Positions 35,280-38,671 of a DNA stretch of 64,000 bases are shown piece after piece. Within the stretch, counting starts at the first letter, position 1; every line of letters begins with the position of its first letter. The DNA is taken from the NCBI GenBank assembly GCA_947591315.1, contig CANQDD010000011.1, positions 25,313-89,312 on the forward strand. The letters run 5' to 3'. The translations under genes were made by a program, and so were the position numbers. The stretch is from an uncultured Clostridia bacterium (GTDB lineage: Bacteria > Bacillota > Clostridia > UBA1381). The notes beneath the pieces are model-generated. The model was not told where the DNA came from. It made no database searches and saw only the letters and a program-made list of their open reading frames with translations.

Positions 35280-37016
35280 TCAGTTAAGTCCAAACTGTTC
35301 CTTACAATCTGCGAGAACCTTCTCAATCTCCGCTGTCGCGGCCTCAAAGCTATCGGCGAATGTGCCGAGATAAATCTTAATTTTCGGCTCCGTACCCGAC
35401 GGACGAACGATGAAGTACGTCTTGTCGTCCGACAGGTTGTACTTCAGCACGTTCGACTTGGGCAGTCCCGTAAGCGGCTTAACATTGCCCTTTGTGTCCT
35501 TGACCGTCTGCGACTGATAGTCGGTGTAAAGCACAATATCCATACCGGCAGCCTTTACGGGCGGATTTTCGCGCAGACCCTTAAGCAGCGCAGCCATTTT
35601 CTCCATGCCGTCCTTGCCGGGCATCGTGAACGAAACGGTCTTTTCCGCGTAATAGCCGTATCTCTTGTACACGTCCATAAGCGCCTCGTAAAGCGACATG
35701 CCCTTTGTCTTGTAGTACGCCGCCATTTCCGCGATAAGCATTGTCGCGACAACGCCGTCCTTATCGCGCGCATGCGTGCCGACGAGGTAGCCGTAGCTTT
35801 CCTCGAAGCCTATTAAATAGGTATGGTTCTTCTTCTCGGCAAACTCGGTCATCTTTTCGCCGATATACTTAAAGCCGGTGAGCACGTTCATGACCTCAAC
35901 GCCGTAGCTCTCGGCGATCGCAGCCGCAAGCTCGGTCGTTACGATTGTCTTTATAACAACGCCGTCGGCGGGAAGAACACCCTTTTCCTTCTTCGAGCGG
36001 AGAATGTACTCAACGAGAAGCGCACCCGTCTGGTTACCGGTGAGCGTTCTGTAAACGCCGTCCGCGTCGCGGACAACGATACCTACGCGGTCGCAGTCGG
36101 GGTCTGTGCCGATGATAACGTCAACGTCGTTCTGCTTCGCCATTTCGATAGCGATATCGAACGCCTCTTTATTTTCGGGGTTCGGCGAAACGACCGTCGG
36201 GAAATTGCCGTCCTCGGTATCCTGCTCCTTAACGACAAGCACATTCTTGAAGCCGATACGCTTCAAAATTGCCTGTACCGGACGCGAACCCGTGCCGTGG
36301 AGCGGAGTGTATATGAGCTTAAACGTGTCGGCAACAGCCGTAACCGCCTCGGGGTTCTGCTGCTGCGTCTGCACAACGTCTAAAAATTTCTCGTCAAGCT
36401 CGCTGCCGGGAATTTCGAGCAGTCCCTTTTCCTTCGCCTCGTCGAGCGAGATATACTTTACGTCGTCAAATATGTCGTAGCTGTTTATCGCCGCGACAAC
36501 AACGTCAGCCGCGTCGGGCGGAAGCTGACCGCCGTCGGGACCGTAAACCTTGTAGCCGTTGTACTCCTTCGGGTTGTGGCTCGCGGTAATCATAACACCC
36601 GCCGCGCAGCCCAATTCTCTTATTCCGAACGAAACCTCCGGCACGGAATGTACTATCGGGAACAAATACGCCTTAACGCCCGCCGCGGTCAGAACCTTAG
36701 CCGTTTCCTCGGCGAACACGCGCGAGAAATTACGCGTGTCGTAGCCGATAAGCACGCCCGCCTTCGCCGCGTCCTCACCTCTCGACTTAACGTACTTCGC
36801 GACGCCCTGGCTCGCCTGGCGCACGTTGTAGATGTTCAGTCTGTTCGTACCGGCGCCGAGTATGCCTCTCATACCCGCCGTGCCGAACTCAAGGTCGCGG
36901 TAAAAACGCTCCTCTATCTCCTTTTCGTTGTCCGCAATGGCGCGGAGCTCCGCCTTTGTGTCGTCGTCAACAGCGTCGCTCGTCAGCCAGCGGTTATATG
37001 TTTCCTTGTAACCCAT
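35280..37016 (-). CDS. Phosphoglucomutase/phosphomannomutase family enzyme
   Basis: 578 residues, alpha-D-phosphohexomutase superfamily. Catalytic phosphoserine is in VMITASHNPKEYNGYKVYG, Mg2+ loop in GTDPDCDRVG, sugar loop in GFEESYGYLVG, and phosphate-binding loop in RPSGTEPKIKIYL. The length fits the PgcA-type enzymes of Firmicutes that interconvert glucose-1-P and glucose-6-P. AGGAGGA precedes the ATG. Confidence 0.92.
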   Translation of the reverse strand: MGYKETYNRWLTSDAVDDDTKAELRAIADNEKEIEERFYRDLEFGTAGMRGILGAGTNRLNIYNVRQASQGVAKYVKSRGEDAAKAGVLIGYDTRNFSRVFAEETAKVLTAAGVKAYLFPIVHSVPEVSFGIRELGCAAGVMITASHNPKEYNGYKVYGPDGGQLPPDAADVVVAAINSYDIFDDVKYISLDEAKEKGLLEIPGSELDEKFLDVVQTQQQNPEAVTAVADTFKLIYTPLHGTGSRPVQAILKRIGFKNVLVVKEQDTEDGNFPTVVSPNPENKEAFDIAIEMAKQNDVDVIIGTDPDCDRVGIVVRDADGVYRTLTGNQTGALLVEYILRSKKEKGVLPADGVVIKTIVTTELAAAIAESYGVEVMNVLTGFKYIGEKMTEFAEKKNHTYLIGFEESYGYLVGTHARDKDGVVATMLIAEMAAYYKTKGMSLYEALMDVYKRYGYYAEKTVSFTMPGKDGMEKMAALLKGLRENPPVKAAGMDIVLYTDYQSQTVKDTKGNVKPLTGLPKSNVLKYNLSDDKTYFIVRPSGTEPKIKIYLGTFADSFEAATAEIEKVLADCKEQFGLN

Positions 37017-37123
37017 CGAATTATCCTCCTTGAAATTTCTTGTAGATAATTAGATTATACCACCGCTCCGCACATTTTTCAATTATTATATATGTAAAAT
37101 TTGGCGACTTATTATAGTATAAA

Positions 37124-37152
37124 TTGACAAATAGCGGCTTCAATGGTATAAT
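37124..37152 (+). promoter_or_regulatory. Consensus sigma-A promoter of RNA 1
   Basis: TTGACA (37124-37129), 17 bases, TATAAT (37147-37152): a perfect consensus, starting transcription near 37157-37159. Confidence 0.8.
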
Positions 37153-37156
37153 AATT

Positions 37157-37305
37157 GGGCAACACAAATCTCTATATATTTTTGCCCAAAAGCGCATACA
37201 CTGTAAAAAAACGTATGCCTTAATAATTCGCGCTTTGCGGGTATTGATTTGTGTTGCAGCAAAAGGCGGCGTTTTTATGCGCCGCAGCGCGGCGCATTTT
37301 TTTTA
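37157..37305 (+). ncRNA. Predicted structured small RNA 1
   Basis: About 148 nt with its own promoter. GCAACACAAATC (37159-37170) pairs with GATTTGTGTTGC (37246-37257) to close a rod. Inside are AAAGCGC/GCGCTTT (37089+100-37095+100, 37230-37236) and GCATAC/GTATGC. An alternative GGGCAA/TTGCCC (37157-37162, 37182-37187) competes with the closing stem. At the 3' end GCGCCGC (37279-37285) can pair with GCGGCG upstream (37266-37271) or with GCGGCGC downstream (37289-37295), the latter followed by eight T, so a terminator and an alternative form exclude each other. There is no coding potential. The rod recalls 6S-type RNA, but no diagnostic motif was confirmed. Confidence 0.6.
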
Positions 37306-37312
37306 TTTTGTA

Positions 37313-37341
37313 TTTACAACCGGCGGTAAATATGATATAAT
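37313..37341 (+). promoter_or_regulatory. Sigma-A promoter of RNA 2
   Basis: TTTACA (37313-37318), 17 bases, TATAAT (37336-37341). The ~40-base block around it is nearly repeated before the VbhA-like antitoxin gene at 37839-37867. Confidence 0.75.
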
Positions 37342-37344
37342 AAG

Positions 37345-37517
37345 GATTGCGGTACAATAATTTAATAATAGTTATAATGACTTATTATTATGTAAAAAAC
37401 GTCCGCTTTTTGGACAGTGTTTTTTACGTGTCATTGTAGCTATATTAAGTTGTACCGCAATACAATTAAATATATAAAGCGGCGTTTTTTATGCGCCGCA
37501 TTGCGGCGCATTTTTTA
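37345..37517 (+). ncRNA. Predicted structured small RNA 2 (or leader of the AbrB-zinc ribbon gene)
   Basis: About 170 nt. ATTGCGGTACAA (37346-37357) pairs with TTGTACCGCAAT (37450-37461). Inside are ATAATGAC with GTCATTGTA, GTAAAAAAC (37392-37400) with GTTTTTTAC (37419-37427), and GTCC/GGAC at the tip: a single long rod. The 3' end repeats the RNA 1 design, with GCGGCG (37479-37484), GCGCCGC (37493-37499) and GCGGCGC (37503-37509), then six T. The AGGAGG of the next gene lies 23 bases further, so read-through would express it. Confidence 0.6.
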
Positions 37518-37551
37518 TTAATAACTATATCTGCAATAGGAGGTAAAAAAC

Positions 37552-37800
37552 ATGTCCGAAAAAATTTTTAATGTAAGAAAAAACGTAATCGAAGGTCTCG
37601 GCGAAGAGCTTATCGGTATGCTCGGACTCAGTGACGGTGATGAGGTTAAAGCGGTGAAAAACGGAAACGCCGTTGTGCTGCGCAAGAGTGGCAAGGTTTG
37701 CTTTGTGTGCGGCGGCAGCGATAAGGTAACGGAAATCGGAAACGGAAGATTTATGTGCAAAAAATGCCTCGCCGCTGTGAAAAAGGCGGCGAAGATATAA
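37552..37800 (+). CDS. Small AbrB-like/zinc-ribbon protein
   Basis: 82 residues. Residues ~1-45 (IFNVRKNVIEGLGEELIGML, DGDEVKAVKNGNAVVLRK) fit an AbrB/SpoVT-type swapped-hairpin DNA-binding fold. Residues ~48-72 form a zinc ribbon with paired CFVC and CKKC. AGGAGG is eight bases before the ATG. It could bind DNA or RNA. It lies directly behind the structured RNA and in front of a Fic toxin-antitoxin module; no function is assigned. Confidence 0.65.
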   Translation: MSEKIFNVRKNVIEGLGEELIGMLGLSDGDEVKAVKNGNAVVLRKSGKVCFVCGGSDKVTEIGNGRFMCKKCLAAVKKAAKI

Positions 37801-37838: not shown

Positions 37839-37867
37839 TTTACAATCGGTCGGAAATATGGTATAAT
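37839..37867 (+). promoter_or_regulatory. Sigma-A promoter of the antitoxin-toxin operon
   Basis: TTTACA (37839-37844), 17 bases, TATAAT (37862-37867). It closely resembles the RNA 2 promoter, spacer included. Confidence 0.75.
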
Positions 37868-37889
37868 AGTAGTAAGGAGAGTGATTGCC

Positions 37890-38057
37890 ATGAGCGATAC
37901 GGATAGAATTATTGCCAATGTAAACGCAACAATGGCAATGGAAGGTATGCCTTTGACGAACGATGATAAAATGAGAATACGCGACTGTCTTGAGGGCAAA
38001 AAAAGCTTTGACGAGACGGTTAAAGAACTTGTGGACTTTTACAGGAAAGCAGTATGA
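37890..38057 (+). CDS. VbhA-like Fic antitoxin
   Basis: 55 residues. Residues 14-19 (TMAMEG) match the inhibitory motif [S/T]xxxE[G/N], whose Glu reaches into the Fic active site and blocks ATP positioning. The remainder (PLTNDDKMRIRDCLEG, ELVDFYRK) follows the VbhA antitoxin pattern. AAGGAGAG precedes ATG 37890. The stop overlaps the toxin start (ATGA), the usual coupling of class I Fic modules. Confidence 0.82.
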   Translation: MSDTDRIIANVNATMAMEGMPLTNDDKMRIRDCLEGKKSFDETVKELVDFYRKAV

Positions 38058-38671
38058 ATAATAAATATTACTATGAGTATGAATGGGACAGTAAATACTG
38101 TTACCCCAAATCCCATGTGCTGAAGAATAAATTAAATATAACAAATCAAGACGAGCTTGAAGCTGCAGAACGTGCCATAACCGCCGTTAAGACCTCTCAG
38201 GCAAGTGTTAAGCATATAAAAGGTAATTTTAATTTTGAACACTTGAAGAAAATTCATAAGTTTTTATTTGAGGATATATATGATTGGGCAGGCTGTATCA
38301 GGACTGTCAATATATCCAAAGGCAATCAATTCTGCCGATTTGATTATATCGAAACACAGATGAATGACCTTTTAAAGAAGCTGAAAGATGAAAATTATTT
38401 GCTTAACTGCAAAACCATAGATGAAATCGGAAAGCGGCTTGCTTATTATTTAGGTGAAATCAATGTAATACACCCGTTCCGCGAGGGCAACGGAAGAACA
38501 CAAAGAATGTTTATCGAGCATCTTGCTTATAATGCAGGGTATGAACTGGATTTTATGAAAATAAGCAGTCAGGATATGCTTGAAGCAAGCGCCAAAGCAT
38601 ATGCCTGTGAATATGATTTGATGGAAAAGATAATTATAAACGCATTAAGAAAAACCGATAAAAAAGTGTGA
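38054..38671 (+). CDS. fic: Fic-domain AMP-transferase toxin
   Basis: 205 residues. Catalytic motif HPFREGNGRTQR starts at His140, with the complete HxFx(D/E)GNGRxxR consensus, and a Fic flap lies near 80-100 (IRTVNISKG). No N-terminal inhibitory helix is visible, as expected when the antitoxin is a separate protein. Such enzymes transfer AMP to targets such as DNA gyrase/topo IV and stop growth until inhibited. The toxin and antitoxin are AT-richer than the flanking sugar genes. Confidence 0.88.
   Translation: MNNKYYYEYEWDSKYCYPKSHVLKNKLNITNQDELEAAERAITAVKTSQASVKHIKGNFNFEHLKKIHKFLFEDIYDWAGCIRTVNISKGNQFCRFDYIETQMNDLLKKLKDENYLLNCKTIDEIGKRLAYYLGEINVIHPFREGNGRTQRMFIEHLAYNAGYELDFMKISSQDMLEASAKAYACEYDLMEKIIINALRKTDKKV

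Follow-up and report, generated by a model that had tools for sequence, protein, structure and literature searches.

Tandem rod-shaped RNA leaders with alternative terminator helices in an uncultured Clostridia bacterium: likely transcription attenuators of a dispersed RNA family

The window analysed in this study is a stretch of 64,000 nucleotides from an uncultured Clostridia bacterium. Two tandem promoter-rod-terminator elements, RNA1 and RNA2, were located on its + strand. The upstream neighbour of the rods is a divergent phosphoglucomutase gene, and an 82-aa ORF, a 55-aa ORF and a Fic-domain gene follow downstream in this order. The features of the locus are as follows; L, a, b, c and p denote pairing segments, and P1 the closing stem of the rod.

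37124-37152, + strand: RNA1 promoter, TTGACA-17-TATAAT with TG before the -10 (extended -10), 12/12 consensus
37159-37257, + strand: RNA1 rod, P1 arms 37159-37170 and 37246-37257
37194-37199 with 37213-37218, + strand: RNA1 apical hairpin (p with L), p:L pairing taken from the orthologue L019:1589-1703
37203, + strand: RNA1 invariant loop G
37207-37221, + strand: RNA1 segment L (AAAAACGTATGCCTT), partner of a
37263-37276, + strand: RNA1 segment a (AAGGCGGCGTTTTT), able to pair with L or b
37277-37304, + strand: RNA1 terminator, b 37277-37285, c 37289-37297, U-run to 37304
37313-37341, + strand: RNA2 promoter, TTTACA-17-TATAAT with TG before the -10 (extended -10), 11/12 consensus
37346-37461, + strand: RNA2 rod, P1 arms 37346-37358 and 37449-37461
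37392, + strand: RNA2 invariant loop G
37394-37409, + strand: RNA2 segment L (AAAAAACGTCCGCTTT), predicted to be held by a 3' partner (GGACAGTGTTTTTTAC) and not by a 5' p
37476-37490, + strand: RNA2 segment a (AAAGCGGCGTTTTTT)
37491-37516, + strand: RNA2 terminator, b 37491-37499, c 37503-37511, U-run to 37516
37552-37800, + strand: AbrB/MazE-like and zinc-ribbon ORF, 82 aa, predicted target, AGGAGG at 37538-37543

The first-pass annotation described two promoter-driven rods with near-perfect sigma-A promoters and two-state terminators, and the promoters (12/12 and 11/12), the folds and the a-b-c module were all present. In this module, GCGGCG in a, GCGCCGC in b and GCGGCGC in c are followed by the T-run. 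The extent given by the annotation (37157-37517) needs correction: with their promoters, the elements span 37124-37516 (RNA1 37124-37304, RNA2 37313-37516). Its 12-bp closing stems apply to one rod, and the other has 13 pairs. The 1.2 kb scanned contained 12 promoter-like sites, compared with 3.7 ± 1.8 in shuffles. The fold of RNA2 had an energy of -65.9 kcal/mol (z -8.2; 0/200 shuffles as good), and that of RNA1, at -48.2 kcal/mol (z -2.4; 3/200 shuffles as good), exceeded its shuffles in stability only moderately.

The N-terminus of the 82-aa ORF bears a weak likeness to MazE/AbrB, and the protein contains a CxxC...CxxC stretch; its Pfam matches, to PF04014 (E 0.007) and two zinc ribbons (E 0.008), all fell under the cut-off. 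Past the RNA2 terminator, the promoter scan showed no further promoter-like site before the ATG of this ORF at 37552, and AbrB/MazE-like zinc-ribbon ORFs lie behind rods in three genomes (our own, G003 and G017) at distances of 33, 31 and 151 nt. These results agree with the earlier suggestion that the rods are leaders of the AbrB-zinc ribbon gene. The stretch 37839-38671 holds a promoter-like site at 37839-37867, similar to the RNA2 promoter, and behind it the 55-aa ORF and the Fic-domain gene (PF02661, E 8.2e-17); we take these two genes to resemble a Fic toxin-antitoxin pair. In the genome G009 (L021 1520-1620), the window's site is without RNA1, RNA2 and the AbrB-like gene and keeps the Fic pair.

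Orthologous loci were found in two other genomes of the genus, with 94% and 87% identity over 701 bp. Among the 48 pairs of RNA2, these orthologues showed 3 compensatory changes, 4 one-sided changes and 3 broken or gapped pairs. The 28 pairs of RNA1 showed 2 one-sided changes, and the closing stem was invariant and so uninformative either way. The two rods had been called unrelated in primary sequence. This does not hold, as RNA1 and RNA2 are homologous in the apical segment L and in the module a-b-c and match one covariance model; only the rod stems have diverged. RNA2 is a variant in which an insertion after L (alignment A1) provides a predicted 3' partner, with which L would form a hairpin.

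The models of Rfam release 15 (4227) were searched at gathering and permissive thresholds. Over the whole window, only a tRNA was found at the gathering score, and no Rfam family reached its cut-off on the rods. At E ≤ 10, the region 37000-37600 gave 30 Rfam matches, the best of which reached 28.9 bits where the gathering score is 100. Among the weak matches, SprD scored 28.9 bits (gathering score 100) and GcvB 25.2 bits (gathering score 42), and both were dismissed as chance. In 38 relative loci searched at E ≤ 0.5, two matches overlapped rods, both far under the cut-off (sbrA, 28.6 against 45, in L112; MIR8007, 34.7 against 195, in L109). The T-box leader model had no match in the Rfam searches of the window or of the relative loci. 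The first-pass annotation had also considered 6S-like paralogues, which would sequester RNA polymerase. The rods do resemble 6S RNA in their rod shape, with a long closing stem that includes the 5' end. However, the genome's own 6S RNA lies elsewhere (C13:15077-15269; L046 1501-1693) and matches RF00013 above the cut-off with 66.8 bits, RF00013 was not among the matches in 37000-37600 at E ≤ 10, and the genome carries 17 copies of the rods with switchable terminators. A 6S identity is thus highly improbable.

A DNA search of 41 genomes (our own and 40 relatives) was the starting point for defining the family. Matches occurred in 21 of the 41, comprising two orthologous loci and numerous short hits with either the terminator module or the promoter, and the same anatomy recurred at selected matched places in the relatives. 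A rule-based rod finder that demanded a promoter, a closing stem and a terminator, and not L:a pairing, was then used. The L:a score was at least 24 in 28 of 30 rule-found rods, with about 15-23 aligned positions paired. These 30 were picked by hand from 50 rows, with shifted duplicates and random-looking rows dropped, and include six rods from three orthologous loci as well as L026, which has a misplaced stem and a score of 0. Convincing pairing was absent from L041 (score 17; 52/100 shuffles as good), one copy of L045 was weak (6/100), and L095 had only 9 pairs. The consensus was AAAAACGYAGGCUUUG for L and CAAAGCNGCGUUUUU for a.

Alignment A1 was made from 22 of the 30 selected rods, and the covariance model R1 was built from these 22 sequences with the L:a and b:c pairs. 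RNA1, absent from the seed, matched R1 with 69.3 bits (E 6.6e-15), and RNA2, which is in the seed, with 82.4 bits (E 3.5e-18). The model found 17 copies in our own genome at E ≤ 1, all of them with E ≤ 3e-7. The two window rods are therefore members of a dispersed RNA family. Matches to R1 were found in 35 of the 41 genomes, with up to 31 per genome. In samples where at most 8 candidates per genome were scored under stricter filters, so that misses are possible and copy numbers are lower bounds, R1 matched 96 of 391 genomes from the class (our own included) and, among 398 genomes from the phylum, a sample that includes some members of the class, our own and 0 of the 397 others. The search of individual loci covered 80 of 132. 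Among 25 loci fetched for other reasons, hits at E < 0.1 occurred only in L050, an already known rod locus. An exact pattern scan gave 4 matches in genome contigs, all in records of uncultured Eubacteriales or Clostridia bins, and 0 in viral contigs; the pattern is too strict to gauge the distribution.

After near-identical copies were collapsed, 79 of 94 hits formed the non-redundant set, of which 78 were placed for anatomy. Nearly all copies share one plan, namely a sigma-A promoter with an extended -10, the closing stem P1, the apical segment L, and then a, b and c. The promoter agreed with the consensus at 9/12 positions or more in 71 of the 78 rods, the spacer was 17 nt in 73, and TG preceded the -10 in 70. 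P1 started as a rule 2-6 nt past the -10, which places it near the predicted start site. A P1 rule of at least 8 pairs was passed by 77/78 rods, but also by 148/236 placements with the upstream sequence shuffled; we therefore adopted a score of at least 24, which was reached by 70/78 rods and 8/236 shuffled placements. Such a P1 together with a promoter of at least 9/12 occurred in 64/78 rods against 1/236 shuffled placements, and neither element played a part in building R1.

In the 34 folds inspected, P1 as a rule carried an upper stem and, at the apex, a hairpin in which p pairs with the first (5') half of L. Many of these folds, though not all, placed the remaining 3' half of L and the bases that come next in a 3' bulge. 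In 71 of the 78 rods (seven with an evidently misplaced P1 were dropped), the four 3'-terminal bases of L were unpaired with a mean probability of 0.57-0.72 and the bases immediately following with 0.64-0.73, compared with 0.30-0.33 for the 5' core of L. The G in the apical loop was invariant (79/79 rods), and this hints at a ligand-binding aptamer but is suggestive only. A G-N-N-A tetraloop capping p:L was found in only 31/79 rods and was dropped.

The segments offer several pairing options: L with a, a with b, b with c (the terminator), and p with L (the apical hairpin). In the 79 rods, cognate partners exceeded permuted partners for L:a (27.5 versus 22.4), a:b (22.3 versus 17.7) and p:L (18.3 versus 14.1), and in each case 0/2000 permutations reached the observed value. 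The result was again 0/2000 for all three helices when the permutation was restricted to sequence subclasses. The same was true when the test was confined to pairing that is mostly outside the b:c stem, where the start (5') of a meets the loop-side part of b. The helices a:b and p:L took no part in building R1. All 9 pairs of the L:a core had both-sided changes and G-U pairs were common, which speaks for RNA pairing over DNA symmetry.

In alignment A2, L:a and b:c together were paired in 93.9% of cells versus 84.4% in shuffles, with both-sided changes in 18/22 pairs; this test is biased toward these two helices, as both are part of the model behind A2. No such bias affects L:a in the rule-found rods, or a:b and p:L in the permutation and A2 tests. 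In A2, p:L was paired in 74.4% of cells versus 69.4% in shuffles and a:b in 81.9% versus 75.7%, and slid controls gave 18-62%. The number of p:L and a:b pairs with both-sided changes was not above shuffles (reached by 98/500 and 161/500), so the support for both comes from how many cells are paired and changed, and from the covariation score (0/500). The p:L hairpin is not universal: many CUCU and UUCC copies have just 5-8 pairs, and RNA2 uses its 3' partner. A lack of covariation in homologous loci had been named beforehand as a refutation, and the outcome was the opposite; the first-pass view that the RNAs are functional, keep their shape and end in a two-state terminator is supported. The median energies of L:a, a:b and b:c in the 79 rods are close together (-16.5, -15.1 and -16.4 kcal/mol), and that of p:L is -9.7 kcal/mol. 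The a:b helix is weaker than b:c in 53/79 rods and weaker than L:a in 51/79. As L:a spans the long rod, it is a predicted pseudoknot.

The position of the rods relative to genes was analysed for the 70 rods that are last in their row. An ORF start preceded by a ribosome-binding site (RBS) was found within 60 nt for 41 of them and within 100 nt for 50, compared with 7/70 and 11/70 in the divergent control. Among the 61 distances found, 34 fell at 13-31 nt. The RBS rule can pick the wrong ORF, as in L080, where the pick lies 13 nt downstream and a gene of the 45-aa family at 18 nt. This family of 45-aa proteins (MNDYEEMY...; L133-L162) has no Pfam match and up to 4 copies per genome. It gave 31 gene matches, of which 30 had their own loci tested, and a same-strand rod ended 18-88 nt upstream in 29 of the 30 (the rod match of L136 is cut by the contig end). 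The sole locus with no rod begins 168 nt from a contig end. At two loci (L140 and L143), three rods in a row precede one 45-aa gene. In our own genome, four of the 17 rods precede genes of this family and several others precede ORFs with a signal-peptide-like start.

The Pfam search (E ≤ 0.001) of 50 ORFs within 100 nt of rods found 10 LRR_5 (BspA type), 3 SLH, 3 CHAP, 1 helix-turn-helix and 1 MazE/AbrB, and 18 of the 50 were at most 101 aa and not flagged as exported. A crude signal-peptide heuristic flagged 29/50 targets (the AbrB-like ORF wrongly) versus 111/291 in a mixed control, and we claim no enrichment.

The rods might also be stand-alone small RNAs acting in trans, with the downstream ORFs incidental or expressed by weak readthrough. 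The complete terminators in the window fit this explanation, as do rows of rods with separate promoters (9/79 rods have another rod close behind) and the 9/70 last rods with no RBS-started ORF in 400 nt. These ORF-less copies may be plain sRNAs or decayed. For the family, however, we consider it unlikely, since 41/70 rods end within 60 nt of an RBS-start against 7/70 in the control, a rod stands at 29 of 30 genes that were fetched by protein, and a:b covaries though it is of no evident use to a plain sRNA. 

Two rods of our own genome, L059 and L064, share 203 bp at 93.6% identity from just before the -35 to the T-run, and their flanks and genes are unrelated. The copied unit is therefore the promoter with its leader. 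The same leader thus stands before unrelated genes, as is also seen in the Pfam spread of the 50 targets. These data would also suit selfish MITE-like repeats, in which the promoter and terminator are by-products and L and a, as inverted repeats, serve as DNA ends or as sites for proteins; the copies are many, and presence or absence at one site differs between species. We regard this explanation as quite improbable, because pairing is maintained through G-U and compensatory changes and the usual place of the rods is just before an RBS. In addition, a blastn search with one rod, from L077, found no match among 50,697 records of phages and 72,556 of plasmids, and no target-site duplication was evident by eye in the L059/L064 alignment. 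Most likely, the rods are attenuator leaders copied before unrelated genes (surface proteins, small proteins and AbrB-like regulators); the covarying helices, the last rods near an RBS-start and the rods of the 45-aa genes support this reading. As the cassette from the -35 to the T-run is copied in front of unrelated genes, it likely forms a regulon. Naville and Gautheret (2010; PMC2965389) describe mobile attenuators and attenuator regulons, with similar 5' terminators before non-homologous genes, many of them tied to insertion sequences or BIMEs. The rods differ from the attenuators described there in being copied as a whole cassette of promoter and switch.

We propose that the window rods are tandem 5' leaders of the AbrB-zinc-ribbon-like ORF and that each is, with good probability, a transcription attenuator in which L, a and b covary as alternative partners. 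The basis is computed and comprises family membership, the promoter-rod-terminator layout, the covariation of p:L, L:a, a:b and b:c, and the position upstream of ORFs. The leader lies directly upstream of the ORF, and its alternative helices, including the intrinsic terminator, covary. On the simplest reading, as RNA polymerase exits the rod, nascent a would dock on the 3' half of L, a toehold predicted to be mostly unpaired. Segment a would then displace p and form L:a, leaving b free for c, and transcription would stop (OFF). If L were masked or p:L stabilised, a:b could form in place of the terminator and the ORF would be transcribed (ON). The loop G and the A-run that follows it are the likely recognition site of an L-masking factor, which may be a ligand, a protein or another RNA. 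In the window, readthrough from RNA1 would enter RNA2, giving two checkpoints ahead of the gene. The switch logic follows from the covariation of the alternatives; the order at the toehold, the assumption that the signal means ON, and the nature of that signal are our inferences.

Leaders of the PyrR type and riboswitches with terminator platforms use an anti-antiterminator, an antiterminator and a terminator. The rods are similar to them in that mutually exclusive helices would decide termination before an ORF. Unlike them, the rods have no known sensor domain and occur in up to 31 copies per genome before unrelated genes, and their proposed anti-antiterminator sits at the apex of a rod that begins, with its 5' end, near the start site. 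LoaP is a NusG paralogue that acts in antitermination on a leader hairpin. A paralogue of this type would suit a multi-gene regulon with leader hairpins, but our own genome (17 rods) and G013 (31 rods) each have a single NusG match at E ≤ 1e-5. No second NusG-like protein was found in our own genome, which is 85% complete and has one PF02357 match. LoaP-type antitermination is thus a very remote explanation of the family, and the proposed attenuators are unlikely to be triggered by a NusG paralogue.

A further reading, which we put forward tentatively and with slightly more doubt than confidence, is that the family is a new sensor class. Portable promoter-attenuator cassettes (up to 31 per genome) would act by toehold strand displacement, and one signal, received through the loop G and A-run, would govern surface proteins, tiny proteins and AbrB-like regulators in many Clostridia. 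If so, a large uncatalogued family of regulatory RNAs would run a scattered regulon in many uncultured Clostridia, spanning BspA-type LRR, SLH and CHAP surface proteins, tiny proteins and regulators. It would also be a natural and directly testable case of toehold strand displacement deciding termination, with an orphan signal to find, and it would explain why promoter and regulation are copied as one cassette to unrelated genes. Our literature search, judged from titles, abstracts and passages and with most subscription papers outside its scope, returned no description of the present rod family. The SLH motif, a riboswitch candidate reported by Stav et al. (2019; PMC6429828), lies before S-layer genes and genes of unknown function, with 80 examples in part from Clostridia and also from Synergistaceae and Negativicutes. 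Both the motif and the rods stand before surface-protein genes (3/50 rod targets have SLH domains), and the comparison made here is with the text description of the motif (PMC6429828). If the SLH motif shares the plan of the rods, the novelty shrinks to a very large extension of that motif.

Two other kinds of element were seen in the neighbourhood of rods. Several of them have a repeat nearby that measures about 105-120 bp, with copies roughly 84-94% identical (L067 1239-1358, L073 1842-1960, L074 1014-1133 and L088 1282-1391). Gut-1 RNA (RF01706, cut-off 50) matched within about 1 kb of rods at L122 2203-2402, with one match of 70.5 bits above the cut-off and one of 38.6 below it, and sub-cut-off matches of 37-40 bits, likewise within about 1 kb, were found at L035 611-679 and L042 582-650.
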